Below, piece after piece: positions 13,311 through 45,400 of a DNA stretch of 64,000 bases. How positions within the stretch are numbered: the stretch's first letter is position 1; every line of letters starts with the position of its first letter. The position numbers were made by a program, and so were the translations under genes. The notes under the pieces are model-generated. The model worked only from the letters and a program-made list of their open reading frames with translations. It had not been told where the DNA came from and ran no database searches. Origin of the DNA: Telopea speciosissima (Eukaryota > Streptophyta > Magnoliopsida > Proteales > Proteaceae). The stretch lies in the NCBI RefSeq assembly GCF_018873765.1, contig NC_057920.1, forward strand, positions 12,661,307-12,725,306, given 5' to 3'.

Positions 13311-16152
13311 TCAGGACAGGACCCACATGAACACTGTGGACCACATAGTGAGAGAAAAGGCTGCAACCAAGTATGTCCAAATGTATAGGACTGAGCACTC
13401 CTCTTTACCCACATCAAACAGTTGGGTCATGGTACCTACATCATCATCATATGTTCTGTTAATGTAAAAATGGCCTGTCTGATATATACTTGGTACCCCC
13501 TATGTAGTATTTGGGTATGATGAACATGACTGAAACCATATTAATATGAAACAAGAAATTTGTGAATGAGTAAATACCGACACTCATGGCAGGTGGAAGT
13601 GTAAATTGTAACATTAGGACGTATCGATAGAGAGGGTCTGGTGAGAGGAAACCCAGATCACCAGCTACCTTAACCACACCCATTCCAATCACAGGAAGTA
13701 TCATGTATCGCACTACAATGACTCCTACGATGAGCAGTGGCCTCAATTTTGCCGAGCGTAAACCTGCTTAAGCAAACACTTAGTGTAAGTTCAAATACAG
13801 AATCCAATTGTTCTCCATTCTTTTCATATTTAATTGGATAGTTATAGATCTCATTTCACCTTGAATGAGGTTAGCTCCTACTATAAGGGTGCTGCAGGGA
13901 ATTGCGCCTTCCCTACACAGTTAGATGTCTTGATGTCAATAGAAGAATGAGAATCCAGACTGAGATGATACCATGTAAAGGGGAAAGCAATGACTAACTT
14001 CAAGTGCTCTACTTTTTTTCCTCTCACAATATATTTGTATTGCAGTAGCAGACACAAACAGAGATACCAGGAGAATATCACAGTACAAAAGAAGAGGATT
14101 GTGAATAAGGTGAGAGTTTTGTGCTTATCATGGATAAGATGAAATGTGTAGAATTCCAAAACAGAGAACATAATATCTATGTTGAGTTTTCTATTTGACT
14201 ACTCATGTGCTGAACGCGATTAATTCATTATACATACCCAAGTAATTTAATCGAGTCCTGGATCAGTCGTAGAGGAGCAGTTTTACCGACAAGAAGATTC
14301 TTCAGCCATGGCACACACCCAAAGATGAATCCTACTAACTGTTAGGATACAGAGAAGGTAAGCTTGTCTCTTTACCTTAGCAAATTAGAACATTTTAGTA
14401 TCTTAAAAACACTTACTGCAGCAATAGTTGGTGGTGCCATCAACTCCTCCTCAATCTGGTAGAGAATTCCTGTTACTTTTCCCCATGATGATGATCTCTC
14501 ATCCCCAGCCTTCCCAGAAGACTGAGCTAGAACCTAATATGGGAAGAATTTGAGTTTTGCAGAAAACAGTAAATAAACTTGGTCTTTCATATTGCATCAA
14601 GAACTCCTGGGACATGTCAAAGGATTGACAGCAAGACTAAATTCTTAGAACACTTTTTTCATAAATATTTGCTTTAAATTATTAAGGAATTAACAACCTC
14701 ATCAATGGGCTTTGCTTCATCTTCATAATCTACATTGAGAAGGTGAGATTCACTGTTGGCATCTAAATCTTTGTTAGGCTTCTTCAATGCTTCCTCAGCA
14801 TCTTGAATTGCTTTGTATCTTATTGCTGAACTTCGTACAAGATGATAAGTGTAAGTCCAAATGTAAAATCCGCCGATCTGCATTATAAGATAGAAAGTGA
14901 TGAAATCTTGATGTTTCCATGTTTAAATAAACTTGACATTAGGCCTAACAGATTTTAGGATCTAGATAATTCACTGAGCCAAATGTTTTCAAGAAAAAAT
15001 ATGTAAACAAACTGAAAAACTTAAATCATTATGTAAATCAAGTAATGGTTCTCATCAGAGATGTATCATATATGGAAGATCAACTCAACTGGATGATAGA
15101 GAAATGAAAATTTGTTTCTTTACCGCCATGGAGAAAGATGCATAAGAGAGAGCCACGGCGTTGCAACTATTACGGTCTCTAAATGGGCTGCCCTCTTCAT
15201 TACAGATTGCAGGGACAACTACTAAGATAAGGTTTCCTATATTCCCTGTTTTAAATGAAAAATGATACTCTGAGAAAGTAATTAAGGACCTCAAAGAGCT
15301 AGGATTCAGTAGCATTGGGTAGCAACAAAACTAACACTAAAAAGAAAAAGATTTCAGTAACTCTGAGGGGACAAATAACCTGCTGAACATGTAGCAATGA
15401 TGAGGCCTTCTAGATATGGTTCTGGTTTTAAAATTTTCACAACTATCCACCCAAGTAGTCCTCCAATAAAAAAGATTAATCCCACATTGATGGGCATGAA
15501 CCACCTAAAGAAATGGAATTAAAGAATCAGGTCAAAACTCCATCAGGGTTTTGTCAATAAAAAAATTCCTTTTACATGTTATGAGAAAAGGTTTTCTGAG
15601 CCGCTGGGTGGGATACACTAGCACCTCTCTATCTATCTCTTTCCTCCTCACATGAAATGACCTCGCTGCCTTCCAATGTACGATACTGTTTTACCGCACC
15701 TCATTGGTGTGCTCCTCTATGCCATTTGCTCAGAGAATCCTCTCCCATATAATATATTGTGATTGTTAAATGCTTGTTAATTGTAGCTTACCATGTAAAA
15801 ATATCTTGGAGATCAACAGTCTTAACTAGACTTGCAAACATGAGTGATGGACCAAACACATCAAACACAAGCTGCATTGCCCAAAAAGTTTTGTCATCAG
15901 TATCAGAAAGTCTTCTTAATCAAATTACAAAATGACCAAAATTATTACCTCCACCCACCCATGCTAAATAGATAGATATTTACATGTGTATGTATTGCTT
16001 AAAAGTAGTTAAGTTACCTTGTTCAAGTATCTCCGAGAATCTGGATTTAGAAGGTTCAAATACTTGGTTGCCATGAAAGCCCCCAGAGTACTGATGAGAA
16101 GGACCTGCAACATGGGCATGGCTGCCACCTCGAGAAGTGTCAAGAACCCCAT
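13311..16152 (-). CDS. PILS: PIN-LIKES (PILS) auxin transport facilitator
   Basis: Ten exons join in frame on the minus strand: 16152-16018, 15871-15792, 15504-15380, 15245-15124, 14877-14698, 14533-14417, 14338-14238, 13912-13860, 13763-13578 and 13435-13311. They encode 407 residues, the normal family length, with GT-AG introns throughout. The N-terminus (LLEVAAMPMLQVLLIS) and the motifs WWFMP, SAGNIGN, GAIPCSTLIVGANL and LPPAM belong to the PILS branch of the Mem_trans carrier family, proteins of the endoplasmic reticulum membrane that hold auxin inside the ER. A hydrophilic loop is encoded by exons 5-6, between two hydrophobic blocks. No damage is seen, so this is the probable functional copy. 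I cannot assign a PILS number. Confidence 0.92.
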
Positions 16153-16384
16153 CTTCTCTTCTCCCTTTTCTCCCTCTCTCCCTCTCTCCCTCTCTTCTTT
16201 ATCACTTCTGATTCTGCCCCTGTAATATTGGAGAAGTATTTGAAAGCTCTAGTTGAAGAGGGAGAGAACCCTGAGACAGAGAACCAGTAAAGGACAGAGA
16301 TTTGGGTTTAAATTAGTTTTCACAGTTAAAAAACACAATATTTTCTCTTTGCAACAGAAGAGATAGGGGGAAACAAATTGGGTC

Positions 16385-17230
16385 AGAATAATATTGAAAA
16401 TTATCCAAACACAAACAGTCCAGGGAGGAACTCAACAGGATCGTTCTTCATAGTAAATCTTTTGAACCTGAACCAAGCCATTGGCTAGAAGAGCATGTGA
16501 AGCCATGCCTCAAAAAATAAGTTTCCTTTCTCGTCATTATGTCTAGTGAAGTATAACATTTCAGTATTTTCCACATGACACTCATTGATATAATTTCAGC
16601 TTAAAAAGAGTAGAGGAAATAGCTAAAATTATAGAAGATGTCATTTTGTATTTTCATCCATTTGATGACATTTTGATAATTTTACTAAAATTTTGAATCA
16701 GAGTTTGAATAACTTTCCTCACTTACTTTGAACTAAAATTTGACTATTGTATGTGGGGTCCTTTATCACATGGACTAATCCATGCACTGCCGTGTGATAA
16801 ATAGTGAAATGTTTTACTTCACAAGGCATAATGTCGCCTAGGAGAACCCCCCTAAAAAGGGAATTATAGTAAAGGAAACTTGTAGAAGAATCTTGACTGA
16901 TCCAGAACTATGTTGGCCAAGATACGAAGAAAAAAACATGGAAAATTTTAACTTGATGAAGATGTTAAGATTGGTCTGGTTTAGAGCGACTCTGATCTGA
17001 ATCGTTAGGGATCAATCTCGGCTAATTCGACCAATCCAATCTTGATCTTATCTGTGACTTTCTATAAAGGGCAAACGCAGTGCACAAGGCTCCCGCCACT
17101 ACAAGGTCTAGGGGGCATCATCTATGGCTCTCTATATGTATTCTAAAACTCAAAGTATATATCTATATATATAGAGAGAGAGAGAGAAGGGGGGGGGGGT
17201 GGCCCTGGACCCATCTGATAAGGCCAAACT
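16385..17230. other. Unit 1-only segment with Au SINE fragment
   Basis: Unit 2 reads straight from 'caaattgggtca' to 'ggttggttgg' (near 32735), skipping this 846 bp. It is either an insertion here or a deletion there. At about 17067-17122 it contains the 3' half of an Au SINE on the minus strand ('cagtgcacaaggctcccgcc'), then a GA/G-rich run at 17171-17201. No gene is seen. Confidence 0.55.
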
Positions 17231-18724
17231 CAGGTTGGTTGGTTAGTTATATTATCAACTTCTTCATAGAAGCTAACGCATAAGTTGTTGAGATACTAAC
17301 ACACACCGCTAATCCCCTCCCCATAGGAACTCTAAAACCTTTAAAATATAAGTTTTATTTTAAAATTTAGGGATAGAGAACGCTACCTGGTCGCTTCAAT
17401 TTTATCTGAGGTGGTCATTTCGCCTGTCCCAGTGTCTAAGCGCAAGGGAGCACATCGCACGCGCCCAAGTAGTGATCTTTCTCCCTAAAATTTAACACAA
17501 AAAATATAATGGATGATTAATGATTATGAATTGCTTGGATAGCTAGACATCTAAGTCTTCTCTTTCATTTTTGTAAAATAAAAATATTTTGAAGGAAAAA
17601 GAACGCTACCTAGTGGCATGGCCCGTGTGGCTCCTGTGCCTAGACACATAAGCGTGTGAAAATACCACTGCCCCCATGGAAAAGTTAGAAATCCCATCCA
17701 GGTGTGTTTGTGCATGCGCTCCCATGAGTCCCATCGGCCAGCACGCACTTGCAGGCTCTAGAGCTCAGGCAACAATCTCTTTCTCTATTTTAAACCTTTA
17801 AAATAGGGAAAAGAATCACCACAAGAACTGCTATTTTCATCTCATTTAGATTATAGGGGAAAATGCTTTTGAGTTTGAGATGTAAGTTATGCCAGTTAGT
17901 AGTCTCTCTCTCTCTCTCTTTTCTTGACACTCTCTCCTCTCATCTCTATTGATGAATGTCTCCCGTCGTCCTCATTGGGTGACTCCCCACCCAACTAAGT
18001 TTAGAGAACAATCTCCCATAATTATTTTAAGTTTTTTTTATTTTTCCAAATTTTCAAATACCCTACCCTACAACAAGGGAGGAGGAACGAGGGGAAATTT
18101 TTTATCCCTGTAATGAAAACTTAAATCTCATCACACAAGTAAACGAGGAAAAACTGAGTTTTGATCTGAAATCCCTCGCCCTCTAATGGTGAAAGGGTTG
18201 AAAGAGTACTACAAGCTTAATTCAAACAATATATATGCCAAAAAAAAAAAAAAAAGGGAGAGAGAGAGAGAGGAACGAACCTGCACATCCAAATTATTTA
18301 ATGGAGTCCAGGAGGGAGAGAGAGAGAGAAGGTCAATGAGCCAAAACCGAAATGACCAGTCGATGGAGAGACGGGAAGAGGAAGAGAAAGAGAGAGGAGA
18401 GAAGAGAGGTGGGAGTTAGCTATAGGGGAGAATAAGCCTTGAGAAAATTACCCGCCTATTTTTCAGGACGGAATTGAAGCTATACCCCAAATCTCAACAT
18501 TCTCATGCAATCTCATCATCTCCACCATCACAACAACAAAACCAAATGAAATAATTCGATGGCAGATATAAAAATCTTACAAAGAAAGAAAGGGCTACAT
18601 ATTTCATGTTTATATATAAACATAGGCTGCGTTTGGTAAGCAATCTTGGAATGCATTCTAGGTCGATTTCGCATTAAACCGAGAATGACATGTAGAGAGA
18701 GATAGAGTATAGTAGGGTAAGTAC

Positions 18725-18928
18725 TACGTAATGGATCCAGATCTTCTACGACGTGGGCTGCCCATCTTGCCGTGCTGCACAGACACAAGGTGGCTTGCAT
18801 TGACCGCCTTACCCCTGCCCGAGCGTCTTGTCCAAGTGGGAGTAAGGTGGTCATTGCGTGCGGCCCTGTGTCTGCGCAGCACAAGCAGGATAGGACAGCG
18901 CACCGTAGAAGATCTGTGTTGCTACGTA
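18725..18928. mobile_element. Palindromic MITE (TACGTA-end type), unit 1
   Basis: The ends TACGTAATGGATCCAG and its near reverse complement enclose paired arms carrying 'ccgccttacccctgcccgag' and 'gtaaggtggtca'. It is present at the same place in unit 2 (34205-34410) and so predates the duplication. Four overlapping short frames on both strands are artefacts of the palindrome. Confidence 0.75.
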
Positions 18929-19366
18929 ATATGCATAAGGTATGTATAATTTGTAAGTAATATGGTATATTAGCTGGACTAGCTGGATTGGTGGAAGAAT
19001 CCTTCCATCAGCTCCATCGCCACCTTGCCTTCCATAATTATTTTATCTAATTTTGTATAGTCTTATCCTTGTATATTGATTCCCTCAATCAAGGGGATTG
19101 CATTGTTACTTGTTCTATATATTTACACCATTGTGTGGGTAATAAAATCACTCAAAATATTCTATTCATTATCTGATTTTTACAGGGTAAAAGTTAGGCA
19201 TGCTGACGGCTAGCACTGTGCCTAGCCTGAGTCTGTCTCTCTCCCACTTCGTATGAAAATGACCTCCTTGCCCTTCCTTTCCCACCCTCTCCATTGGGCA
19301 CAGCTGCTAGCTCTAGGAAAGGCAGCAGTGTGCCTGGCCAACCCTCTCCCATATTATATTTTGATA

Positions 19367-19367
19367 T

Positions 19368-19410
<43 letters not shown>

Positions 19411-19411
19411 G
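19367..19411. repeat. (CA)n(TA)n microsatellite
   Basis: About nine CA followed by about fourteen TA units. The unit 2 counterpart near 35116 is only 'catcacacatatatgg', so the tract expanded in unit 1 or contracted in unit 2 after the duplication. Confidence 0.85.
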
Positions 19412-19666
19412 GAATCTCAATTTGGGGCTTGGCATAAGCCATATAAAATACAATTTGGATTCATTTCCATTATATCAAACTATACTATCTGTCTCCATAT
19501 TAAAAATACAATATTGATCTTATACATGGTGGGTTATATAATTGTGACGAATTAATAGATTAAATTATTATGTAAATGAAGTAATGAGAAATATAGAAGA
19601 TCAACTCAACTGGATGATGAATACTATAATTTGGTTAACCAAATAGAAATAGAAAATTGTTTCTAC

Positions 19667-20485
19667 TGCTATGGAGAAAGAGGCACAATAGAGAGCTACG
19701 GCGTTGCAACTATTACGGTCTCTAAATGGATTGCCATCTTCATTACAGATTGTAGGGACAACTACTAACATAAAGTTTCCTACATTCCCTGTTTAAATGA
19801 AAAATGATAGTATGAGAAAATAATTAAGGACCCCAAAGAGCTGTGATTTAGAAGCTTCGGGTAGCAACAAAACTATAAATCTAAAATGAAAAAGATTTCA
19901 GTAACTCTGAGGGGATAAATAACCTGCTGAACATGTAGCAATGATGAGGCCTTCTAGTTAAAGTCTGTAAACGGATCGGATTTGGCTCGGATACGGATCG
20001 GATGTGATCGAACCCAGATATTAATTCCTTGGCCGAATACGGATACCTCTAAACGGATTTGGATGCAAATCAAATTCGGATCTTTGACCACCCATATCTA
20101 TTTACATTTCTGCCTTGTGTAACCCGGACCTATTTCCCCCTAGTGGATACAATTTACTTTCAATCCATCTCTTAGATCATGATTCTCTTTTCCTCATATT
20201 CTAGAACTTGTTGAGTCTTCAAAAACCCTCAAGCTCATTATTTACCTAATTTTTTATTATTTAGTATTCGGATTTTTTTCGGTTGGATTTTTTTTCCAAA
20301 TATCTATAAAAGAATATGAATATCCCTAAACGGATACGGATGCAGATCGAATTCGAAATTTCAATTATCCATTTACAGCTCTACTTCTAACTAGATATGG
20401 TTCTGGTTTAAATATTTTCACAACTATCCACCCAAGTATTCCTCTAATAAAAAAGATTAATCCCTCGTTGATGGGCATGAACCAC
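19667..20485 (-). pseudogene. PILS relic with exons 3 and 4 only, unit 1
   Basis: Exon 4 (19788-19667, 122 nt, same size as in the intact gene) is open and would read NVGNFMLVVVPTICNEDGNP. Exon 3 is split by a hAT-like MITE: 20485-20384 and 19958-19924. Neither exons 1-2 nor 5-10 are found near it. It is an older, separate PILS duplicate already broken before the large duplication, since unit 2 has the same remnant and the same MITE. Confidence 0.8.
19959..20383. mobile_element. hAT-like MITE rich in AAACGGAT, 425 bp
   Basis: The ends are TAAAGTCTGTAAACGG and the inverted TTTACAGCTCTA, flanked by CTTCTAGT and CTTCTAAC (8 bp, decayed). It sits inside the exon 3 relic of a PILS pseudogene. Multiple 'cggata/tatccg' motifs fill the interior. 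No coding capacity. Confidence 0.75.
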
Positions 20486-20742
20486 CTAAAGAAATGGAGT
20501 TAGAGAATCACGTCAAAACTCCATCAAAAAGCAACCAGTATAGTGTTGTTGACTAGATTAAGGATTGTTGTAATGTGGAATAAAACATGTCCAAAACAAA
20601 ATCAAGTTGATATATAAACCAATAATACCATTTGTGCTGCCCCAAGTAATTGCTCATGCAATTTATTTGACTAATTTTGAATAAAACTAAGTTACATCTT
20701 GCGTAATGATTCTTAATTAGAGAGAATAGGTTATTAATTAAT

Positions 20743-21743
20743 GGGTAAAATACACGTACCCCTGTAATGCACCCAATATTCCTCGTACCCCCTAAGTTTC
20801 TGATAAGTCCACATACCACCCCTCAATATTCCATGTACCACCCCTGCTTTACCCCCCTAATGCCATTTAAGTCCACATCAAGTGTTAAATGCTAAAAAAT
20901 GACCAAACTACCCTTTCTTCTATCTATTCTAAAATTTTGAAAAGACCTAATTGCCCTGACCTATTTGCTAAAATTTGAAAATACCAAAATGCCCTCATCT
21001 TCCCCAAATCATTATCTTCTTTTACATACCCAATACCACCACCACCACCCACAATTAACACCATCACCACCGTGAAGCCCCACCTCCAGCACCACCGCCA
21101 CCCACCACCATTAATACCACCAACCACCGTGAAGCCCCACCTCCAACACCACCTCCATTGCAGAAATTCTGGGATCCTCCACTTTCGTTGGATTGTGACG
21201 TTGACGGTGTCGGAACCCATGGAAAGGTGGAAGAGACCTCAAATTGGAGCAGTTCCCGATCTCCGGTGGAATCTTATCCACCAAACGATTACCAGAAAGC
21301 TTCAAATGGCTAAGAGACTCGCATCCACTAGAAGGATCGATCTTTATTCAAAATCCAACGGAAGTGGCGGATCCCAGAATTTCTCCAATGGAGGTGGTGC
21401 TGGAGGTGGGGCTTCACGGTGGTGATGGTGTTAATTGTGGGTGGTGATGGTGGTGGTATTGGGTATGTAAAAGAAGATAATGATTTGGGGAAGATGAGGG
21501 CATTTTGGTATTTTCAAATTTTAGCAAATAGGTCAGGGCAATTAGATCTTTTCAAAATTTTAAAAAAGATAGAAGAAATGGTAATTTGGTCATTTTTTAG
21601 CATTTAACACTTGGTGTGGACTTAAATGGCATTCGAAGGGTAAAACAGGGGTGGTAAGTGGAATATTGAGGGGTGACTTATCAAAAGCTTAGGGGGTGCG
21701 AGGAATATTGGTTGCACTACAGGGGTGTACATATATTTAACCC
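20743..21743. mobile_element. Foldback MULE-like element carrying an LRR-kinase fragment
   Basis: Long inverted arms of roughly 370 bp start GGGTAAAATACACGTACCCC and end in the inverted GGGGTGTACATATATTTAACC(C). Both sides are flanked by the 9 bp repeat TTAATTAAT (20734-20742, 21744-21752), the length typical of Mutator insertions. The central part, minus strand at about 21305-21180, reads KLSGNRLVDKIPPEIGNCSN, a leucine-rich repeat as in LRR receptor kinases, so it looks like a captured gene fragment (Pack-MULE). Unit 2 lacks the element, so it inserted after the duplication. Confidence 0.8.
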
Positions 21744-21784
21744 TTAATTAATTAAAAAAATAGTTTTCTATCCGGGAGTGTGCG

Positions 21785-22043
21785 TAGGGGTGTAAATGAA
21801 TAGCCAAAATCCGTTTTCGTATCCGTGTCTGTATCCGTTTAACGCTTCCGAAAGCTAAACGGATGCGGATACGGATAGGCTATAGCTATCCGAAAACCTA
21901 TATTTATATGTAAACGGATAAAATATCCGATCCGTATCCGTGTCCATATCCGTTTAGCACTATCCGAATCCGTCCAATAGCTAATCGGATGCGGATGCGG
22001 ATATAAGCTTCTCCAAGGCGAATCCAATCCGTTTACAGCCCTA
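21785..22043. mobile_element. hAT-like MITE, 259 bp, perfect 8 bp target duplication
   Basis: TAGGGGTGTAAA at the left pairs with TTTACAGCCCTA at the right, and AGTGTGCG flanks both sides (21777-21784 and 22044-22051). An 8 bp duplication and TAGGG-type ends fit hAT elements. The interior is rich in 'atccgttt/aaacggat'. Confidence 0.85.
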
Positions 22044-22648
22044 AGTGTGCGTTTGCATTGAATCAAATATTCCTTGCCTTTCTCTGTGTTATAAACGAGA
22101 AAATCTAGGTGCAACTATATATACAAGGAAATTAAAAGAAGAGGTTCCCCATCCACGTCAGCGATCTGTGTGAACCCTTACCATTACATATCGACGCTCC
22201 GATTGTAAACCATTTTGGCAATCCCCAGCCGTAGATGTTTCTCCCATAGGCAATTTTCCTTTTTCTCGATTTTCCCCCAAACCCCCTTCGTAAATCCTTT
22301 TAAGAGTTCAGAACATCTTCCATGTAATTGGCCACCGAAGAGGTGAGTAACCATCTACCACTCCACTGTTGGGTAGTTCGGCAGGGGCTGTTCTTTTGTT
22401 GTTAATGAGATTTCGCCACTTGGGAGAGAAGTTCTTTGTCTTGGATCTAATCCTGCTGCGTCCCATATTTGGAGGTAAAAGAATTTGGTTGTCATACCTA
22501 TGATATAGAGCAATCTCTCGGCATAATCTCTCTTTAAGCATTTTGTCAAGAGGGAGCTTTTTTGTGAACCAAGATTTTGAAGCTGCACCAAGAAAATGAG
22601 AGGAGAAATAAATGCGGTCATGGGTGGTCAAATGGGTTTGGGTGGCGT

Positions 22649-23575
22649 TGGAAATATCAAAAGCTTAAGACCGAAAAACTAAGGAAAAGTGTTCCTACGT
22701 GCACTCAAAAAAATTCACTGACTGATAGAATATGGATTGCTTGGTAAGTTGTTCTACGATAATTTTGATTTTTGAGTGAATGTAGGTTTAAAGTTTGGGA
22801 AAATATAGTTTTTATTATGTGCAGCTCACTCTAATATATGAGCACTAGATTAAGTCAGCATAGACTAAAGGCCTTAATCAGCTTAGGTTGAAGGGCTTAA
22901 TCATAACTAGGGCAGCACCCTTCTCTGTATTCTAATTAATCCTTCTTTGTATTACAATACTCTGTTAGTGATACTTATCTAATTAACGATGATCTACATC
23001 GGTGTATCCAACCGACTACTTAGTGGTGCACGCACTTTGCAAGTTTCGAGTGAGATTTAATCTGGACCATTCTTTTTGATCCAGTGGTCCAATTTGAATC
23101 TGGATAAGATCAATGTATACAGTTGATCAATAGTTATGGCTATTATATTTTTGGATGGTTTAAATCGTACAGTTATGATCTAACGGATCAGATTCAAAGA
23201 TGGAAGGATCCATCTGTTGGGAACAGTTGCAAAGTGGCTTATTAATACCCAAAGTTATTTTAAACTTGGTTATATCCACAAACGTTCTTCTCCTCCCTCA
23301 TTCTCAAAGGTGATTTTGTAGGGAATCTGTTTTACTGTAGGAAACAGATTTCTCTGTTTTCTGGCTTTTCTGTTTCTCAAAAGGCTTTCAGGCATCGATT
23401 TTGGCTTCGTTTGTGCAATACGCAGCCAAGATAATCAACAAGTTTGGGCTTTATTGTATCGTGGGAGATAATTCATCTGTAACCTATTTGTATTTGGAAG
23501 TAAAGACGAATTTCGTCTTAAGGACAGCGACTCTGTAACGTGCCTTGAAGATTCAAACTAACTTTCTATTCTAAC
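22649..23575. other. Unit 1 segment replacing the PPR region, possible LTR debris
   Basis: Homology with unit 2 stops at 22648/37195 and resumes near 23576/40375. Here unit 1 holds 930 bp without any PPR sequence. Runs such as 'ttctctgtattctaattaatcc' followed by an AT-rich stretch and 'cgtcttaaggacagcgac' look like LTR retrotransposon debris, but I recognise no protein and no clean ends. Confidence 0.45.
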
Positions 23576-23761
23576 ATCCCTCTCTTGACTTACGATAGAA
23601 CTAGAATGCTGTGACTGAATTAATTAAATCTGAATTGTTTCTTCCTTAAATATTGTAACATTTGTTCTTCGTTGTGTACTTCGAGTGCAAAAAGTGGCCA
23701 TGGACGAGGGCTTTCTTTTGTTACACAAACAATGCTATGAAACTGGCCGGAGAAGACGACA

Positions 23762-34653: not shown

Positions 34654-34839
34654 TTTTTGTTTTTTTTTTTTTTTTGAAGGCAGGAGGGGTATCCGACTTT
34701 AGGCCGACTAAATCCCCCCTGGGCCTGTACATGACCCCTGCGCCACGCACGAACCGGGAGCTTCTGGGCCCTAGTGAGCTCAGGCGGATGGCCCCAAGAA
34801 ATTATGCAGCGGCATAAGGTTTGATCACAAGACCTCGCT
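34654..34839 (-). mobile_element. SINE with 19 bp target duplication, unit 2 only
   Basis: The T-rich left end is the A tail of a minus-strand element; the body of about 165 bp reads on the minus strand from AGCGAGGTCTTGTGATC. Flanks 34635-34653 and 34840-34858 (TCAAGGGGATTGCATTGTT with one mismatch) are the target duplication. Unit 1 at 19091 has the empty site. The box-B-like CCGGTTCGTGCG lies mid-element. The family is not recognised as Au. Confidence 0.8.
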
Positions 34840-35410
34840 TCAAGAGGATTGCATTGTTACTTGTTCTATATATTTACACCATTGTGTGAATAATAAAATC
34901 ACTCAAAATATTCTATCCATTATCTGATTTCCATGGTAAAAGTTGGGCATGCTGGCGGCTAGCACTACGCCCAGCCTGAGTCTGTCTCTCTCCCACCTCG
35001 TATGAAAATGACCTCCCTGCCCTTCCTTTCCCACCCTCTCCATTGGGCACAGCTGTTAGCTCTAGGAAAGGCAGCAGTGTGCCCGGTCAACCCTCTCCCA
35101 TATTATATTTTGATATCATCACACATATATGGAATCTCATTTTGGGGCTTGGCATAAGCCATATAAAATACAATTTGGATTCATTTCCATTATATCAAAC
35201 TATACTATCTATCTCCTTATTAAAAATACAATATTGATCTTATACATGGTGGGTTATATGATTGTGACGAGTTAATAGGTTAAGTCATTATGTAAATTAA
35301 GTAATGTTTCTCATCAAAGATATATCGATCAAATATAGAAGATCAATTCAACTGGTTGATGAATACTATAATTTGGTTAACCAAATAGAAATGGAAAATT
35401 GTTTCCTTAC

Positions 35411-36227
35411 TGCCGTGGAGAAAGAGGCATAATAGAGAGCTGCAGCGTTGCAACTATTACGGTCTCTAAATGGATTGCCATCTTCATTACAGATTGTAGG
35501 GACAACTACTAACATAAGGTTTCCTACATTCCCTGTTTAAATGAAAAATGATAGTATGAGAATATAATTAAGGACCCCAAAGAGCTGTGATTTAGAAGCT
35601 TTGGGTAGCAACAAAACTATAAATCTAAAATGAAAAATATTTCAGTAACTCTGATGGGACAAATAACCTGCTGAACATGTAGCAATGATGAGGCCTTCTA
35701 GTTAAAGTCTGTAAACGGATCGGATTCGGCTCGGATACGGATCGGATGTGATCGGATACGGATATTCCTTGGCTGAATACGGATACCTCTAAACGGATTT
35801 AGATGCAAATCGAATTTGGATCTTTGACCATCCATATCCATTTACATTTTTACCTTGTGTAACCCGGACCTTCCTCCTCCTAGTGGATACAATTCACTCT
35901 CAATCCATCTCTTGGATCATGATTCTCTTTTCCTCATATTCTAGAACTTGTTAGAGTCTTCAAAAACCCTCAAGATCATTATTTACCTAATTTTTTATTA
36001 TTTAGTATTCAGATTTTTTTCAATCAATTTTTTTTTCGTAAATATCTCTAAATGAATATGGATGTCCCTAAACGGATACGGATGCGGATCGAATTCGAAA
36101 TTTCAATTATCCATTTGTAGTCCTACTTCTAGCTAGATATGATTCTGGTTTAAATATTTTCATAACTATCCACCCAAGTATTCCTCTAATAAAAAAGATT
36201 AATCCCTCGTTGATGAGCATGAACCAT
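35411..36227 (-). pseudogene. PILS relic with exons 3 and 4 only, unit 2
   Basis: The counterpart of 19667-20485. Exon 4 is 35532-35411 (122 nt). Exon 3 is split by the MITE at 35703-36125, and its first codon is changed (GTGG to ATGG). Splice dinucleotides of exon 4 remain. Confidence 0.8.
35703..36125. mobile_element. hAT-like MITE in PILS relic, unit 2 copy
   Basis: The orthologue of the 19959-20383 element, with flanks CTTCTAGT and CTTCTAGC. It was present before the large duplication. Confidence 0.75.
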
Positions 36228-36439
36228 CTAAAGAAATGGCGTTAGAGAATCACGTCAAAACTCCATCAAAAAGCAACCAGAATTGTGTTGTTGACAAGAT
36301 TAAGGATTGTTGTAATGTGGTATAAAACATGTTCAAAACAAAATCAAGTTGATAAACCAATAATACCATTTGTGCTGTTCCAAGTAATTGTTCATGCAAT
36401 TTATTTGACTAATTTTGAATAAAACCTAAGTTAAGGACT

Positions 36440-36842
36440 CTTAACTTTAGAGAATAACTTATTAATTATTATGAGAGGTTATAGGGGTTTGTTGAATTTA
36501 GCTCGTCTCTAAAGAGCCCAACACGTTTAGGGGGCCCCCCCCCCCCCCCCCCCCCCCACCCGGCCCCCCAAGGTCCCCCCCCCCCCCCCCCCCCAAAACC
36601 CCCAGTTGCTGATCCCCAGTTCCCCATAGGGTGTTGGCCCCCCCCCGCGGTTTCTGTAGAGAGGTCATTTCAGCCCCCCTTTGTTAGAGGAATTGGGGAA
36701 CTGAGCCGGGCAGCCAACCGGAGGTGATAAAGATCCACACTTGGATGCCTCCTGAACGTGCTGGGATCTCTAGAGATGAGCTAAATTCAACGAACCCCTA
36801 TAACCTCTCATAATAATTAATAAGCTATTCTCTAAAGTTAAG
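36440..36842. repeat. Palindrome with poly-C core
   Basis: The left arm 36440-36512 (CTTAACTTTAGAGAATAAC...) is the near-perfect reverse complement of about 36770-36842. Between them are C runs of about 30 and 20 bases (36537-36595) and further C blocks. The arms include host sequence that is single-copy in unit 1 (20713-20742). It is either a foldback insertion or a sequencing/assembly artefact in a homopolymer. Confidence 0.6.
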
Positions 36843-37191
36843 AATCATTACAAAAGATAAAAACCCTTTTTAAGAGTTTAGAAAATCTTCTGTCTCTTTT
36901 TCTCCTGTGATGTCTTTATCCATCTATCTTCTGTTCATGTAATTGGCCACGGAAGAAGTGAGTAAGCATTTTCCACTCTACTGTTGCTGTTGCTCGTTCT
37001 GCAAGGGGTTGTTCTTGTTAATGAGATTGTCTTGGATCTAATCCTGGCGCGTTTCCTATTCGGAGGTAAAAGTATTTGGTCATCATGCCTGTGATGTATA
37101 GCAATCTCTACATAATCCAAGATTTTGAAGATGCACCGAGAGAGTGAGAGGATATTAAAATGTTGCATGCTGGTTTGTCAAATAGGTTTGG

Positions 37192-39747
37192 GTGGTGACG
37201 GATAGCTTGTTTTGTCACTCTCCACTGCCCAAAATTGCTTCTCCCAGTCCTACCCACTTCAATCACTTCCACGCACGAGTCCTTCTCTCAATCACCTCTG
37301 CAATCTCATCCAAGAGAACATCGAAAGAATTCATCAAACGTCGTCTCTCCTCCTTCTCATGGAACTCCCTCATCAAAGAATTCACTGCAGGTCGTCGATT
37401 CTTACAGACCCTTTTCATCTTCAAGAAACTACTCCTTACAATCGACTCAAAACCCGACTGCTTTACCTTCCCTCCGCTTCTCAAGGCCTGCTCTGGCCTT
37501 CCTGCTCCTGGCACGGGCTTGGGCCTTCATGGTTACCTGATAAAATGTGGGTTTGTAAGTCAGACAGCGATTGCCAACTCTCTTTTGTCAATGTATTCCA
37601 AAGTTGGAAGAACTCAAGATGCCGTCTTGGTGTTTGATGAAATGCCCATGAGAGATGTAGTATCGTACAATACGATGATCAATGGTTTTGGGTCAAATGG
37701 GTTTTATGAGGAGGTGATGATGGTTTTTTATCAGATACGCAAGTCGGGTTTCTTACCAAATATGGAGTCTGTTTCCCATGCAATTATGGCTTGCGGTGAA
37801 CTGAAGTGCATGTCAATGGGGTTGTTGATTCATTGTTTTGTGATTCAAAAAGGCTTTTACTCGGATGTTGCCATTATTAATTCATTGATTTCGATGTATG
37901 TTAAAGCAGGTAGGCTTGAGATAGGGCGTCATATTTTTTATGAAATGCAAAAGAGAGATCTAGTATCTTGGAATTCGTTGATCACTGGGTATGCACGGAA
38001 TGGTGATTGGTTTGAAGCAGTCGACCTTTTCTTAACCATGCAGAAGGTTGAAAGTTTTACTCCAAGTCCAGTGACCTTCTTGGGTTTGGTATTAGCATGT
38101 GGGCAGGCTAGAAATCTTTATATGGGGGAGAGTATACATGGCTTGTTGATCCACATGGGCCTATTATCTGATTTTCGGTTAGGAACCTCAATTGTTGACA
38201 TGTACTCGAAATGTGGGAGAGTTGATTGTGCTCGAAGCATATTTGATGCTGACTTGTCGGAAAGAGGCTTGGTTTCATGGAATTCACTGATTGCAGGGTA
38301 TTCACAGAATGGGTATGATTATGATGCAGTATTGCTGTTTGAACAGATGCTATTAGACGCACATGTTAACCCTGATTCAATCACCATTGCTAATGTTATT
38401 CCTGCATATGCAAGCTTAGCAGACCTGAGAAGCGTTAGTACAGTCCATGGAATTGTTATCAAGAGAGGTCTTGAGTTGGAAAGTGATACTGTTTTGGGCA
38501 CTGCAATGGTTGATGCGTATGGCAAGTGTTTAGATATTGAATCTGCTACCTCTTTGTTTGCCTCCATGCGGAAATTCAATGTTGCTACTTGGAATGCATT
38601 GATTTCAGGGTACAATCTGAATCAGCATGCTAACTGGGGCATATCACTCTTTCTTGAAATGCTTCAGATTGAGGTCTTGCCAGATTCAATCACCATGGTG
38701 ATGCTATTTCAATCATGTAGTGAATTTGAATCTCTAAAACAAGGAAGTATGCTTCATTGTCATTGCCTTTCTAGAGGTTTTGATTCACATATCACTGTTG
38801 GGAATGCCATTATAGACATGTACATGAGATTTGGAGGTGTAAATACTTCAGTGGTGCTTTTCAACATTATGCCTTCAAAGAATGTCATCACATGGAACAC
38901 AATGCTTTGTGGATATGTCAAGAATGGTCTATCAACCCTGGCACTGAAGTTGTTTCACCGAATGCAGTTGGAAAACCATCCTAAAGTGGACCCAGTCACA
39001 ATGATCTCCATTATTCAGGCCTCTACTACCATTTCAGCTGGTCAAGGTACTGAAATGATGCATGGTTTTGCTTTGAAAATTGGCTTTGACTTGGACACTA
39101 TGGTTGGCAATTCATTGGTTGATGCTTATGCAAAGAATGGTCTTATAGTCAATGCAAGGTCCTTGTTTGAGCAGATGGGTCGGTCAAGAGATCCAAGTTC
39201 CTGGAACACGATGATTGCAGGGTGTGGAGTGAATGGACAAGGAGAAGAGGCATGTTCACTCCTCTTTCAAATGGAAGAAGATGGCTTTAAACCGAATCCA
39301 ATCACCTTTATATCTTTACTGTCTTCTTGCAGTCACTCGGGCCTTGTCAAGGAGGGGTGCAGCTATTTTTATTTGATGATCACAAAGTATGGAATCCAGC
39401 CATCTTTAGAGCATTGGACATGCATTATTGATATGTTTGGACGGGCTGGGAGACTAGAAGAAGCATATCAGTTGATTCAATATGGGTTTCAGTGTAATCT
39501 CTTATCAGATTGTGATGCCATCTGGGGAGCCCTCTTGAGCTCCTGTAGGGAAAATAGGAATATGGAACTTGGAACACTCGCAGCGGAACAGCTTTCCAGA
39601 CTGGCTCCACAAAACTGTGGGTATCACACATTGCTATCAAATTTGTATGCCTCTGTGAATAGATGGGATGAAGCAGAGAAGGTGAGAAGAGTGTTTGACA
39701 ATGGGAAACTAGTGAAGAAACCAGGTATTAGCATGGTAATGGTATGA
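37192..39747 (+). CDS. Pentatricopeptide repeat protein, E type; no AUG start visible
   Basis: The frame is open for 851 codons and carries many PPR motifs in P-L-S style (NSLLSMYSKVGRTQDAVLVF, WNSLITGYARNGDWFEAVDL). It ends in an E domain (GYHTLLSNLYASVNRWDEA) with no DYW, typical of organelle RNA-editing or RNA-binding factors. It has no intron and no internal stop. The 5' end is odd: a stop lies at 37183, the frame then has only GTG, and the first in-frame ATG is near 37588, after the first repeats. Start options are CTG at about 37219, a missing upstream exon, or 5' loss. The frame begins where unit 1/unit 2 homology ends. Confidence 0.85.
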   Translation: MVTDSLFCHSPLPKIASPSPTHFNHFHARVLLSITSAISSKRTSKEFIKRRLSSFSWNSLIKEFTAGRRFLQTLFIFKKLLLTIDSKPDCFTFPPLLKACSGLPAPGTGLGLHGYLIKCGFVSQTAIANSLLSMYSKVGRTQDAVLVFDEMPMRDVVSYNTMINGFGSNGFYEEVMMVFYQIRKSGFLPNMESVSHAIMACGELKCMSMGLLIHCFVIQKGFYSDVAIINSLISMYVKAGRLEIGRHIFYEMQKRDLVSWNSLITGYARNGDWFEAVDLFLTMQKVESFTPSPVTFLGLVLACGQARNLYMGESIHGLLIHMGLLSDFRLGTSIVDMYSKCGRVDCARSIFDADLSERGLVSWNSLIAGYSQNGYDYDAVLLFEQMLLDAHVNPDSITIANVIPAYASLADLRSVSTVHGIVIKRGLELESDTVLGTAMVDAYGKCLDIESATSLFASMRKFNVATWNALISGYNLNQHANWGISLFLEMLQIEVLPDSITMVMLFQSCSEFESLKQGSMLHCHCLSRGFDSHITVGNAIIDMYMRFGGVNTSVVLFNIMPSKNVITWNTMLCGYVKNGLSTLALKLFHRMQLENHPKVDPVTMISIIQASTTISAGQGTEMMHGFALKIGFDLDTMVGNSLVDAYAKNGLIVNARSLFEQMGRSRDPSSWNTMIAGCGVNGQGEEACSLLFQMEEDGFKPNPITFISLLSSCSHSGLVKEGCSYFYLMITKYGIQPSLEHWTCIIDMFGRAGRLEEAYQLIQYGFQCNLLSDCDAIWGALLSSCRENRNMELGTLAAEQLSRLAPQNCGYHTLLSNLYASVNRWDEAEKVRRVFDNGKLVKKPGISMVMV

Positions 39748-40375
39748 TACAAATAAAATAAAATAAAATCTTTAACTAGTTGAATCATATATTTATTTCT
39801 TTCTCATTGGTGCATGTATTTCTTAATCTTTTAAGAAAAAAAATCTCTGGTGGTGTTTCCTACGCCTTTCATAGGAAACCCTCAGATGATGCCTCTCCTC
39901 CTCCCTGTGTAGATAGATACCCAGGCTGGCCCAGATGCAATCAAGTAGAGATCTGTTGCTCTTGCCCAATCTTTTATTACATAAAATTATAATGGGAAAA
40001 AAAGAATGCTACCTGGACATGTTTAGTGCACTGCCCTTCGCCTAGACAGAGGGCCAGGGCACGTAAAATGACTACTGTACCACCATGGAAAGGCGGAAAA
40101 TCCCAGAGGTGTGGTGGTCATTTTGTGTATCCCTCTCTCTTGGCTCAAGGAAAAAGCACACCACACGTCCATTGTTTCTTGCATCATGAGTCCTGCGATC
40201 CTAATTAGGTCTCTTGATGACCTTATTTCTATTCTTCGCATTTATTCATCTGATCAACATTTGATTCCATAAACTATTTCTTTTGAAAGCTAACATTGCG
40301 AAAGAAAGCACTTTTATCCATTTCATCCCCTTCCCAACTTCAATTCTCTATGGCAAAAGTACTACTTCCATCTTT
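39748..40375. other. PPR downstream flank with a CTACCTGG repeat
   Basis: It is absent from unit 1. At about 40006-40165 lies a GC-richer repeat starting 'gaatgctacctggacatg', related to the segments at 17362-17490, 17605-17770, 32884-33000 and 33118-33290. No other gene is seen. Confidence 0.5.
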
Positions 40376-40962
40376 CCCCCTCTTGACATACGATAGAACT
40401 AGAATGCTGTGACTGAATTAATTAAATCAGGATTGTTTCTTCCTTAAATATTGTAACATATGTTTTTCATTGCTTACTCCGAATGCCAAAGGTGGCCAAG
40501 GACGAGGGATTTCTTTTGTTATACAAACAATGCTATGAAACAGGCTGGGGAAGACGATAGACAATGGAGATAACTCTCAAATATGACATATTTTTAAGAG
40601 AAAAAGGTTTTTTGAGCCAATTGTGGTGAGTTCTCTCTCTCTCCTAATAAGAAAAGACCTCTCTACCTCCTATGTATGAAACTGGTTTGCAGCTCTTAAT
40701 TGGTGTGCTCCCTATGCTGCTTGCTCTGAGAACCCTTTCCCTATTTTTAATGGGTAAAAGTGAAAACCAAATATGAGACAAGGTGACTCTTTAAACAAGT
40801 AATTGTTTGGAACCTTCATTAATATAATGGGGGGAGGGATATCTGTATTGCCGTATTGGCATCTCAATTCTCACACACCATGCCAATGGGCATGCGGGAG
40901 GAAGTTCTTCATGATCTGTATATAAGGAGAATCCATATGGTCATGGAGGAGAGAGAATGTTA

Positions 40963-41190
40963 GATAATGTATGAGAAGAGACAGTGTGATACGACGTATA
41001 ATATCGGCAGTGGACATCTTTATTCCCTCAAATTACATGCCCCCTCAATTTCCTTGATTCCATCTAATAGGGGGTAAAAATGACCACCCTACCCCCTGTC
41101 CAAACACACTACCCAATAGGGGTTCACCTCCATCCATTTGAGGTAATGGATGAAATTGATGGGCAGGCAAGTTGAGGTGATAATTTTCGT
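40963..41190. other. Unit 2-only segment
   Basis: The sequence between 'agagaatg' and 'aaaaggtggcaatgg' has no counterpart in unit 1 near 27001-27090. It contains 'ccaccctaccccctgtcc' and 'acacactaccc', reminiscent of the palindromic MITE cores. It is probably a decayed insertion. Confidence 0.4.
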
Positions 41191-41402
41191 AAAAGGTGGC
41201 AATGGATGAGAGCTTTCTTCTGCCATACAAGCTATGCAATTAAAGATTACAATGGTTTTGAAAACTTGGATTCAAAATCTGAACAGTAATCGAGATTTAG
41301 AAAATTTGAACTTAAAAGCTGGCCATGGAAGAGGTTTTTTGTTTTGCCATACAAAGTTATGCCACTGAAGAATACGACAAGCAAACAAGATGACTCTCAA
41401 AA

Positions 41403-41533
41403 ACGAGTTGGGATCAGCTACCCATATGGGGAGCAGTGGGAACAGATCCTAACCCTCCATGGGCTGTGGTATCCATGCCTCATCGACGGTTCAGATCAGT
41501 CACCACCGTCCCCAAGTGGGGAGCAGATCCGGA
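41403..41533. mobile_element. 131 bp insertion with 7 bp target duplication, unit 2 only
   Basis: Flanked by CTCAAAA at 41396-41402 and 41534-41540; unit 1 shows the uninterrupted site ('gactctcaaatacatc', 27491). The motif 'tggggagcag' recurs near both ends in direct orientation. It is a non-autonomous element of unknown class. Confidence 0.55.
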
Positions 41534-42035
41534 CTCAAAACATCTTTTTCCTTCTTTTTTAATATCTGGTTTATACAATGATGTTTTTTTGTATGTTTAG
41601 AGGGTACAATCTATAACCTTAAAGCATCATTAGGTGAAAGGAAAAGAATAAATCGATGTGAGAAATGTAACTCATCAAATGATTGTGTATTTCAGGTGGA
41701 AGGAGGAGATCTTTAAACTCTCCCTTCGGAGTGTCAATGTGGTCCGCCACATGTTAGAAAAAGCTTTATCCTTAAATAAATTCATAATTCATACCACCTT
41801 GTATTGTATTTGTATAACCATGCCTTTGTTACCTACCAGCAGATGCAATATCATATTGGTGCCAGTTTGAATGTTATGGCAGAGAGGTCCATCAATAACA
41901 TTCACCGCTACAACGAACAAAAGCATTTAAGACGAGTAAAGAAAATAGCGATTAACTCGCACCAAAAGTTGCCTCCATCTGGGATAATATTCAAAATGTG
42001 TCTGAAAACTCTTCTGCAAAGTAAATGGAAGGCTT

Positions 42036-42368
42036 TCAAATAGTCGCTTCAATTTCATCTGAGGCCACGGCTCCATTTGGGGCGTCTTCTGTTCGGAGCT
42101 GAGATGAAACATCATCAATGGCTGAGTTCAGCTGTGCAATCTTCTCTGTTAATATCTTCCTTGTTTTCTGTTGATGTAAATGGATCATCCAGAGCAATGT
42201 CAGTGCAGGTTTCGGGTAGAAAATGTTGGCTAACGATACCCCAAAATGTTTTAAGCAGAATGTTAACTATAAGACTGAAAGAAAAACAAACATATTTGCC
42301 TTAAAAGTCCTATCTAGTTCAATTGGATCTGTTGCATATGGTGTAACAACATTATATGATTTTTTTTC

Positions 42369-42406
<38 letters not shown>

Positions 42407-45400
42407 GGGAGGGGGGGGGGGGGGTGGGGAGGCAGGGGAGAAAAAGAATCAATGGTTTAAAGTAAAAGTGGTGAACTCCTTCTAAGGTCATCAGAAACAC
42501 TACAAGTAAGTCTAGAAGGTGGGAGGAACATCAGATTAATTTTTTTAGTGGGTAAACTTAGTTAATTTTCTATGTAAAATGATTGATGTGATCACTTTCT
42601 AATAACAGGTAGTAAACAGCATTTAGACATCCCAAATACTACAATAGAATTATGCCCTTCTGCCACCAATCAAAATTCACACACAAATGATGTAAATTTT
42701 TCTCCTGTTTATTCACAGAACTAGCTACTAAATCAAACCTCGCCGAGTGAGCATGAACACACGTGCACAAGGTGGGTCATAAAAAGCAATATAAAAAAAA
42801 TATATTAAGATTAATGCATGCTGAAAACAAGAGGATTTAAAGAAACGCCTACAATAACAAACTAAAATGAAAAAGCAAACCATAAAGGAAAAATGAAGTT
42901 GTTGCAGGAAAAAATTCATGTCAAACAATTTTGGAGAAAGGCATAATCAAAAGGCTACAGTGATTGTCCTATTAGATTGTACCCAAAGCAAAAGTTTTAC
43001 TAAACTTGCTTTACTGTCATAAGAGAGCAGACCTAATCCCAAAAAGTAAGTTCATGAAATCCTGGAAAGTGGGTTTCTGAATTTCGTGACTAGTTCTGCA
43101 GCGGGATAAACAGAAACAAAACAGAGAAGGAACAAGAAGAGATAGAGAAAGGAAGGAGAATAATAGTTCTTTCTACCTAGCCCTGATTCCAGAAGCATGG
43201 AACAATGAAAATTTTGAGTGTCACCACACCCTCAAGAAGACTGCAACTTCCTACTAAATTGTACCTAAGGAATGCGTGAAACATTTAAGGGGACACTCAT
43301 ACAACTACTCATTTACGACTCAAAGGCATTGTTGCCTGGCAAACATAAGAAATTAAAAGAGAAATCTGCTAACCACATTTTCTGAAGACTACTTTGTAGT
43401 CCATGTGTTTATATGGTCCGGACTGCCACCATAGGCATGCAGCTTTTGGACAACTCTTGGACCTCAGACTCATGGATCCCAATTATTCTCCCAGTAGAAC
43501 ATTAATGACGTTCGACGAAAACCTTTTGCATCAGTTTCGTTCCATTCTAACCTTAAGCAATTCCAAAATGACCAGGAATGAAGGATCCATTCCAAGTGCT
43601 ATTAATAATCCATCATTGTATTCAAAGAGAATGTTCAAGGTAACATTGGGAAGGTGCTACAACTTCTTTGTTAACTCCAACACCATGGGGTATCAGCCTC
43701 ACATGCCTATAGCCAACAATTTCCTAGTAAGCGTACAAGCAGTACTCTGTACAGACTAGGTAAGATTTCCCAACCAAAAGCATAAAAACGGAATTATTGA
43801 CAACCACGCTTATCAAAGCTATAAAAGTGATCCACCTCAATGGCAAAAATAGGAAATATTCATTGTGTTACAACTATCAACCAATAGCATTTTATCAGAA
43901 ATTTATGTCCATTATAATTTACCAGCAAGTGGAAAAACATAAAGAACAGAAAAGAGAAAGCTGTGCAGAAAATAAAATTACCAGATCAAAATGGTTACAC
44001 CTGTTGAAAGTGGAGCTCATGTGAATCTGAAAGATATTCAAGAAAAAGTACTCACCTCCAAAGCTTTTTCTTCATCATATATAAATTTCGGCAGTTTCCT
44101 CATCAAATCTTTTCTGTCAGCCCCAGCTAATGCCTTGCTGATCTGTAAGATAAGATGATCTGTCAATTAGTGCCTGCTTAAGTTACATGCCTACTTGAGT
44201 CCATACTGATGCATCATGCCAAGCATCCAAACAGTGGATTTGTCCAGGCTGCTTACTGCATTATTAATGTTTATCCATAAGAAACTGGGCCACCCAATGG
44301 AAAATTAGATGGGTGCTTCTTGTTGTCTCCAAAGTGGTATACTTAGAAGTTCTAACCATCTTTTGTTTACCCCTTATCTTATTGATGCAGTCACAGGATA
44401 TGAGGGATTTGGGGGTATCTTGTAAATTTTCCATATTCTATGTTGGGGAAGTTGGATACGCATAAGGGATTGAGCAGCTGTTTAATTACCTAGTTATTAG
44501 AGTTTCTATTTAAGTTGTAGAGTTTGATTAGGAAACTTAATTTTCTCCTTTCTTAATATATGTAATCATTGAACGAGAGAGATAGATTTGAAGATTTGGA
44601 ATGAAGTTTATTTGAGTTGTTATGCTGCCGATACATGGCTGTCTTCTTCCTCTTTCTCTACTCAACTCCAGAATTGATCCATTCTCTAGGTGTGATCTGT
44701 TTACTCTTCTTTCCACTACTCTCTTATTTTTCTTCTCGTTCCTCCTTTTATTTGTTACTTCTCCCTGCTGTTGAGTTTTGAACCATCTTCTACTGCTATC
44801 CTCTGTTTCTGGTAGTACTTACAGTCCAAGAGATTTGAATCGAACACTATCGATTCTTCTCTTTTTGGCCTGAGAATTCATGTGTCAAAACCTCATATAG
44901 GTGCGGCTTATCCTGCCCAGTTGAGTCCCTAATAATACCTTAGGGTTGAGAAACGTACCGGCAAACCAGGCTGGTTCTAGAAATACCGTTAGATCTGCCT
45001 TGCAGGAATTTCCTTTGAGTTTATGATCTCTGTTTGACTGTCTTTTAGTTGGAATCAATAGAGCTTTAAGTTGCGAACTTCCACCAGAATTTTCAGATCA
45101 ATCAAAATCACTTTTTACCCTTGACTCAAAGGGCTTTTAGTTGCAGACTTCAAATTCTGTTTTATCCTCTATTTATTTTCATTGTCTAGTTTGTCCCCTT
45201 TCTTTAATTTTAATTCCTTTCTAATCTTTTCCACCACTTAACCACTAAATTATCTTTGATATTCTGGTCATTTACGGTTCTGCCATTCCTCTTGTCAGCT
45301 TGCAAATAAATTACAGAATTGCTATCGAACATTTGATTTGAGTTGTTTAGCACTTGGGTGGAGCTATAGTGAACCCAAATAGGGTTTTGTAACCCGGGTT

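Follow-up and report, generated by a model that had tools for sequence, protein, structure and literature searches.

A stretch of about 12 kb is present twice in tandem on a chromosome of Telopea speciosissima, as found by self-comparison of the window (the whole 64,000-nucleotide stretch of DNA that was analysed, which contains no N). The two copies differ in size (13.5 kb for unit 1 and 11.6 kb for unit 2) and are separated by a LINE that occupies the seam. The duplicated block has its two outer edges in the introns of two different genes, and each unit also carries gene pieces (Table 1).

Table 1. Features of the duplicated locus, in window coordinates.
Feature	Position	Strand	Description
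Unit 1 of the tandem duplication	15779..29232		Colinear blastn blocks with unit 2; edges read
Unit 2 of the tandem duplication	32132..43768		Colinear blastn blocks with unit 1; edges read
Remaining PILS exons, outside the duplication	13310..15545 (approximate, limits by eye)	-	Exon pieces read
Left edge, single-copy context	15775..15784		TT/AA (15777-15778 / 15779-15780); candidate site for the first nick by the LINE
PILS exon 1, unit 1	16018..16152	-	Part of the PILS gene running left to ~13.3 kb
Older partial PILS copy (exons 2-3), unit 1	19645..20526	-	Repeat insertion interrupts exon 2
Orphan last exon of gene G, unit 1	28075..28164	-	Frame-shifting deletion alters the C-terminus
Seam LINE	29233..32131	+	RT, zf-RVT and RNase H; 5'-truncated just before the reverse transcriptase; A-rich 3' tail
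Orphan PILS exon 1, unit 2	32371..32505	-	Start codon, reading frame and splice donor retained
Partial PILS copy (exons 2-3), unit 2	35280..36268	-	Insertion common to the unit 1 copy
PPR open frame, 853 codons, unit 2 only	37186..39744	+	Pfam PPR 3.8e-86
Gene G last exon, unit 2	42036..42167	-	Open up to the stop codon
Gene G exon just beyond the right edge	44056..44142	-	Acceptor TTACAG, donor GTGAGT

The left edge falls inside intron 1 of a gene that we take to encode a PILS protein (PIN-LIKES auxin carrier). This name follows the initial annotation, and the Pfam family matched by the nine joined exon pieces outside the seam, Mem_trans (8.3e-55), is wider than PILS. The edge lies between exon 1 (16018-16152) and exon 2 (near 15410-15545), which bears out its earlier placement in a PILS intron. 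The right edge lies in the last intron of a second gene, here called gene G, between exons 44056-44142 and 42036-42167. It had been assigned to an intron of an unrelated plastid-protein gene; the intron and the unrelated gene stand, while the plastid identity is not confirmed, gene G having no Pfam match above cut-off and its last exon no PDB match. Copies of both genes were thought to survive outside the seam, and intact-looking ones are present there, judged from the Mem_trans match for PILS and, for gene G, from the last two exons alone. Tandem duplications are mentioned for the PILS family in the accessible part of an alfalfa study (PMC13297628), whereas here the large unit holds exon 1 only, plus the older partial copy of exons 2-3.

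The extent of the duplication was delimited by searching 15600-29400 against 31900-43900 for matches of at least 40 columns at E <= 1e-3. Of the 21 matches, thirteen follow one another along a single diagonal; the rest are five local repeats, two inverted matches and one match that stems from the left flank. Matching blocks as long as about 1.7 kb, at E-values of 0, rule out chance as the source of the likeness. The initial annotation had described copies at 15778-29232 and 32134-43768 with at least eight ordered anchors, and had proposed a dot-plot as a check. Self-comparison finds two colinear copies at those positions, with homology that begins at 15779 and 32132 (1 and 2 bases off) and ends at 29232 and 43768; the 13 colinear matches agree with the anchor count and reject a scrambled order. 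The duplicated block is therefore confirmed. Ten segments, summing to 6232 unmasked sites, can be aligned between the units, and the rest of each is unit-specific. No long counterpart of the PPR frame was found in unit 1 at 22500-23600.

The seam LINE has Pfam matches to RVT_1 (2.4e-21, with a further match at 1.5e-10), zf-RVT (1.4e-13) and RVT_3 (6.6e-17). It is presumably of L1 type. The element starts directly after unit 1 and ends directly before unit 2, with nothing else between, its 5' limit being set by the end of unit homology. The 5' truncation falls inside ORF2, and the 3' tail is short and degenerate (TTAAAAATAAA). Its coding sequence has decayed: four stops lie in frame, and the frame changes three to four times. 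Recombination between flanking LINE copies is rejected, as no match to the seam LINE at E 0.01 was found in 12000-15778 or 43769-47500; a single 17-base match lies inside unit 1. Relatives were also sought in viral contigs, as stray plant sequence, with one pattern match and none confirmed. A second LINE is located elsewhere in the window, at 53138-55021.

The left edge begins with AATTG, which is also found at 32132, right after the LINE tail. If the LINE made the duplication, the pre-duplication sites at the two edges would be TT/AA and GGTAAGATTT. The standard of comparison for the left site is the L1 endonuclease nick consensus, of which TT/AA fits the core only; TTAA makes up 0.7% of positions in the window. 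A degenerate TTT/A endonuclease motif is given in the available text of PMC7058536. An ordinary target-site duplication is absent around the seam LINE, where the best flank score is 4; random pairs (n=300) have a median score of 3 and reach 6 at the 90th percentile. This rejects the idea that the LINE inserted later and made a short target-site duplication of the usual kind. The sole control, a SINE-like insertion in unit 2 (34654-34840) picked because its repeat was already visible, was scored in the same way with slightly different settings and gave 16, with a 19-base target-site duplication containing one mismatch.

Divergence between the units was counted on ten segments from the 13 colinear rows, after dropping the short rows 27436-27506 and 27498-27539 and aligning the two rows of segment M as one. 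The fourth left segment was begun at 19108 to skip the repeat of the SINE-like insertion, columns within 3 bases of a gap were masked, and segment M was excluded from the left/right tests. Nine of the ten segments diverge by 5.7-16.6%, while the leftmost 600 bases differ by 2.3% (14/601 sites). Selection on PILS exon 1 alone was set aside as the cause of this low value: the exon has 3 differences in 135 positions, one of them amino-acid replacing, and the 239 adjoining intron bases also have 3 (counted by eye on the alignment).

The left and right parts of the units are unequally diverged. Transversions affect 58/3290 sites on the left (1.8%) and 90/2118 on the right (4.3%; Fisher 8e-8), a difference reached by 0 of 20000 window permutations. 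All substitutions follow the same direction (213/3290, 6.5%, against 199/2118, 9.4%; Fisher 1e-4), as do indel events (22 per 4020 on the left, L0 included, and 27 per 2280 on the right), and 37 of 223 sites differ in segment M. One event of one age, as the duplication was originally described, is consequently not supported in that form, and the unequal transversion divergence makes a second event likely, or else gene conversion or unequal exchange at a later time. These figures could reflect two duplications of different age, with the right half and segment M older and the left half, perhaps together with the LINE, arriving or being homogenised later. We consider this possible but on the whole unlikely, and it is compatible with the other readings discussed below. 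The order and orientation of the blocks match one duplication, and transition rates are alike on the two sides (p 0.34 with L0, 0.77 without). By C context, right and left transitions per site are 0.36 and 0.26 at CG, 0.13 and 0.11 at CHH, and 0.12 and 0.13 at CHG, and so are higher on the right at CG and CHH, and not at CHG. Moreover, a single duplication followed by gene conversion would yield these figures too, and a regional difference in mutation rate is another possible source.

The decay of the LINE can be compared with these ages, if roughly. At the age of the left part, about 3.4 stops and 4.9 frameshifts would be expected, and the age of the right half predicts 10.6 frameshifts. The observed decay is close to the first expectation and below the second.

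Our preferred reading, in which we place modest confidence, is that LINE retrotransposition itself caused the tandem duplication. The initial annotation had the LINE filling the seam, and its position there holds, and the role of later filler is the less likely one, since an element flush with both unit edges that lacks an ordinary target-site duplication is more likely to be the agent. Under the LINE-made model, the endonuclease would nick the chromosome at TT/AA in PILS intron 1, where reverse transcription of the LINE RNA would start. Instead of being joined to the other side of the same nick, the incomplete cDNA would then be linked to a break in the gene G intron, some 12 kb downstream and probably on the sister chromatid. 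The outcome would be unit, LINE and unit in succession, so that the whole gene-bearing block would represent the target-site duplication of the LINE, and the left part of the units would have been homogenised afterwards by gene conversion or unequal exchange. The single event, the sister-chromatid step and the later homogenisation are what we infer from the arrangement of the junctions and the divergence. Several observations count against the LINE-made model: the unequal divergence of the unit halves speaks for a history other than one clean event, the LINE shows less decay than expected at the age of the right half, its tail is short and degenerate, and the nick site agrees with the consensus in the core only.

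The closest known counterpart is a 22.6-Mb LINE-1-mediated tandem duplication in one human tumour, for which the accessible part of the report describes the same layout and model (PMC7058536). There too, a single short L1 event bridges both copies. An endonuclease motif marks the 3' breakpoint of that L1, to which TT/AA is the candidate counterpart here, and the cDNA is likewise proposed to have been joined to a sister-chromatid break further downstream. However, that event is somatic and far larger, whereas the present one is in a plant, spans about 12 kb with its edges inside two genes, and is old (2-10% divergence in the main segments). In the available portion of a plant review, L1 retrotransposition figures among the routes by which copy number changes, with no plant case of a LINE-bridged tandem duplication among the best 12 of 14 places (PMC12073271). 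Similarly, the literature matches listed, seen as titles and the starts of abstracts, include no plant example of a LINE-made tandem duplication, which sets a low prior for this model.

Other histories could produce a similar seam. A tandem duplication of a somewhat larger unit might have arisen first, by unequal exchange or end joining. A subsequent LINE insertion would then have spanned its seam and removed sequence on either side, an occasional effect of LINE insertions, so that the present edges would be deletion edges. Such an ordinary insertion would leave an identical picture, which also counts against the LINE-made model. Missing target-site duplications are described as typical of L1-mediated deletions in the part of PMC7058536 that is available, and LINE insertions with target deletion share with the seam LINE an A tract and no target-site duplication. 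TT/AA would exist in unit 2 as well, and the LINE, being less decayed than the age of the right half predicts, fits such a later arrival. Nevertheless, this sequence of events requires an unrelated insertion to hit the one seam. A random landing within 15 bases of it has a chance of about 0.1% (30/27,990, in a 28-kb array), and a deletion-type insertion spanning the seam, although likelier than that, would still be rare. The flanks here are also copies of one block, with material gained and not lost. We regard this history as distinctly unlikely.

It is less probable still, and in our view improbable, that a LINE cDNA was trapped as filler when break repair linked two broken ends to form the tandem duplication, with no role for the LINE endonuclease. 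Repair of breaks is known to insert extra DNA or to duplicate DNA already present, according to the accessible text of PMC2671141, in which captured nearby DNA likewise shows local duplication at a break and imperfect junctions, and the 5' junction would appear identical. However, an A-rich LINE 3' tail that abuts TT/AA is the pattern of target-primed reverse transcription and not of random capture. The captured pieces in that study were sought as insertions in transposable elements, and an A/T tract is reported for 0 of 39 proximal ones, whereas here a LINE lies between two long copies. Finally, an assembly artefact in which two haplotypes were placed end to end would suit the allele-like leftmost 600 bases, but is highly improbable given the divergence of the other nine segments and the clean, N-free junctions with an A-tailed LINE flush with both edges.

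The broken introns of PILS and gene G are both phase 0 and co-oriented, and the seam could thus encode a predicted fusion in which PILS exon 1 is in frame with the last exon of gene G. The most far-reaching version, to which we give little chance, is that a germline plant LINE made both a giant 12-kb target-site duplication and a chimera at its seam. In this chimera, splicing over the LINE would link the PILS promoter and exon 1 (45 codons, with an intact donor) in frame with gene G's orphan last exon, for a predicted membrane-anchored protein of 74 residues.

New genes in plants stem to a large extent from tandem duplication, the causes of which are mostly deduced by statistical means. A seam that keeps the signature of the causative element would, if the LINE-made model is true, be a rare case in which the mechanism is readable from the junction. 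It would also offer a rule for finding others: truncated LINEs without short target-site duplications, both flanks of which are copies of one block.

The window has a G+C content of 38.9%, contains no N, and from its complement of PILS, PPR, and NLR genes appears to be plant nuclear DNA. Comparison of the window with itself reveals one block present twice in direct orientation (units 1 and 2), with coordinates that fall within two bases of those in the initial annotation. Between 15600-29400 and 31900-43900 there are 21 matches of at least 40 columns, of which 13 lie in order on one diagonal, bearing out the colinear anchors that the annotation had described. Of the remaining eight, five are local repeats, two are inverted, and one comes from the left flank. 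Homologous blocks reach about 1.7 kb in length. Unit 1 begins in single-copy context (...GCTTGTT/AATTGTAGC), and unit 2 begins with the same AATTGTAGC immediately after the LINE tail ...GGGGTTAAAAATAAA. Unit 1 ends in ...CTAGGTAAGATTT, with LINE sequence from the very next base, while unit 2 ends in the same ...CTAGGTAAGATTT and continues into single-copy sequence. Since both unit edges abut LINE bases, this seam LINE fills the seam exactly.

Coordinates and properties of features in the window
Feature	Position	Strand or direction	Remarks
NLR resistance gene	6932-9925		998-codon open frame; NB-ARC 1.2e-50
Unit 1	15779-29232	direct	
PILS exon 1	16018-16152	leftward	
Unit 1-only segment	16386-17226		841 bases; junction overlap about 2 bases (by eye)
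Repeat in partial PILS copy	19961-20390		about 430 bases; matching stretch in unit 2
Unit 1-only inverted-repeat element	near 20740-21755		about 1 kb; long arms, about 90% complementary
Unit 1-only insertion	23760-26621		2.86 kb; begins TGTCACGCCCC
Seam LINE	29233-32131	+	
Unit 2	32132-43768	direct	
Unit 2-only SINE-like insertion	34654-34840		
Unit 2-only inverted-repeat element	36432-36850		one arm with unit 1 counterpart; long C runs at centre (36535-36594)
Unit 2-only PPR frame	37186-39744		853 codons; earliest in-frame ATG at about codon 136 (by-eye count)
Gene G, last exon	42036-42167	leftward	acceptor weak
Unit 2-only sequence	most of 42220-42801		
Gene G, upstream exon	44056-44142	leftward	textbook splice sites
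Second LINE	53138-55021	-	internal 63-base tandem repeat (54624-54753)

The units are of unequal length because of the pieces found in one of them only. By eye, the 2.86-kb insertion is a candidate solo LTR, flanked by a possible imperfect target-site duplication of 5 bases. The PPR frame may have been inserted or have lost its 5' end; homology between the units ends at 37195, close to where this frame begins.

The seam LINE encodes a reverse transcriptase (RVT_1, 2.4e-21 and 1.5e-10 in two Pfam searches), a zf-RVT domain (1.4e-13), and RNase H (RVT_3, 6.6e-17), and is truncated at its 5' end just upstream of the reverse transcriptase. At E 0.01, it matched neither the tested outer flanks nor, as DNA, the second LINE of the window.

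Usual LINE insertion involves strand breaks 10-20 bases apart. An insertion with breaks 12 kb apart would yield the order block, LINE, block; the first nick would fall at TT/AA within intron 1 of PILS, and gene G, an unnamed gene that crosses the right edge, would take the second break in one of its introns. When the flanks of the seam LINE, which are the two units themselves, were compared for a short direct repeat, the best score was 4, meaning no target-site duplication (300 random place pairs: median 3, 90th percentile 6, 99th 8). The single control, scored by the same function with slightly different settings, was the SINE-like insertion, so named from its T run and repeat rather than from a library; it scored 16 (19 bases, one mismatch). 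According to one study, target-site duplications accompany 98.7% of canonical-class insertions in human long-read data (PMC12350158). A published two-chromatid model has cDNA begun at one site and joined to a downstream break on the sister; it was put forward for a single tumour duplication of 22.6 Mb in which the 3' breakpoint of the L1 carries the endonuclease motif (PMC7058536). We slightly favour a LINE insertion as the event that made the tandem duplication. The chief rival is that an ordinary LINE insertion came with a chance deletion of an older seam, a history that would leave the same sequence behind.

Divergence between the units was measured over ten aligned segments. The first 600 bases (L0) differ at 14/601 positions (transversions 7/601), the rest of the left part at 213/3290 (58/3290), segment M at 37/223, and the right part at 199/2118 (90/2118). 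Left and right differ in transversions (Fisher p 8e-8) and in all substitutions (p 1e-4), but not in transitions (p 0.34 and 0.77). The transversion difference was reached in 0/20000 permutations of 100-base windows, with or without L0, and transversions are also in excess over the left part when the end segment R5 is taken alone (p 8e-4). The left part, counted with L0, shows 22 indel events in 4020 aligned bases, against 27 in 2280 for the right part. L0 stands apart from the other left segments in all substitutions (p 2e-5) but not in transversions (p 0.39). At the unit 1-only segment 16386-17226, divergence rises from roughly 2% on one side to roughly 7% on the other; this segment looks less like an insertion than like sequence that unit 2 has lost.

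Given these left/right differences, the pair probably lacks one uniform age. The order of the matches is that of one duplication, as the single-event origin inferred initially would have it, but one event of one age is not supported. The simplest explanation is that the left part later underwent gene conversion or unequal exchange; it is also possible that there was a second event, or that mutation differs regionally between left and right. Along an automatic path, the seam LINE carries four in-frame stops and three frame changes, plus one extra stop at 29308, for which a fourth frame change near 29345 is an alternative by eye. Rough expectations are 3.4 stops and 4.9 frameshifts at the left-part age, and 5.0 and 10.6 at the right-part age, a weak hint that its decay is nearer the former.

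Nine PILS exon pieces, when joined, match Mem_trans at 8.3e-55. Each unit also holds a partial copy of PILS exons 2-3, split by a repeat insertion common to both. Its divergence from PILS is 11-13%, against 4.7% between its copies in the two units, so it is older than the large duplication. The repeat of about 430 bases interrupts its exon 2, where two self-comparison alignments share 7 bases, the pattern expected of a target-site duplication.

Any tandem duplication leaves neighbour-keeping gene copies at its outer ends, and the outer copies of PILS and gene G do keep their neighbours, in line with the initial view that functional copies lie outside the seam. The two genes are both oriented leftward, and as read here each of the broken introns is in phase 0, an agreement expected by chance in about one third of cases. 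In unit 2, the orphan exon 1 of PILS retains an intact start codon, reading frame, and donor; in unit 1, the orphan exon of gene G retains its acceptor AG. The gene G portion of the candidate fusion is changed by a frame-shifting deletion. Splicing across 4206 bases, with the seam LINE inside in antisense, would give an in-frame protein of 74 residues. It is possible that the duplication created such a putative seam gene, joining PILS exon 1 to the gene G exon.
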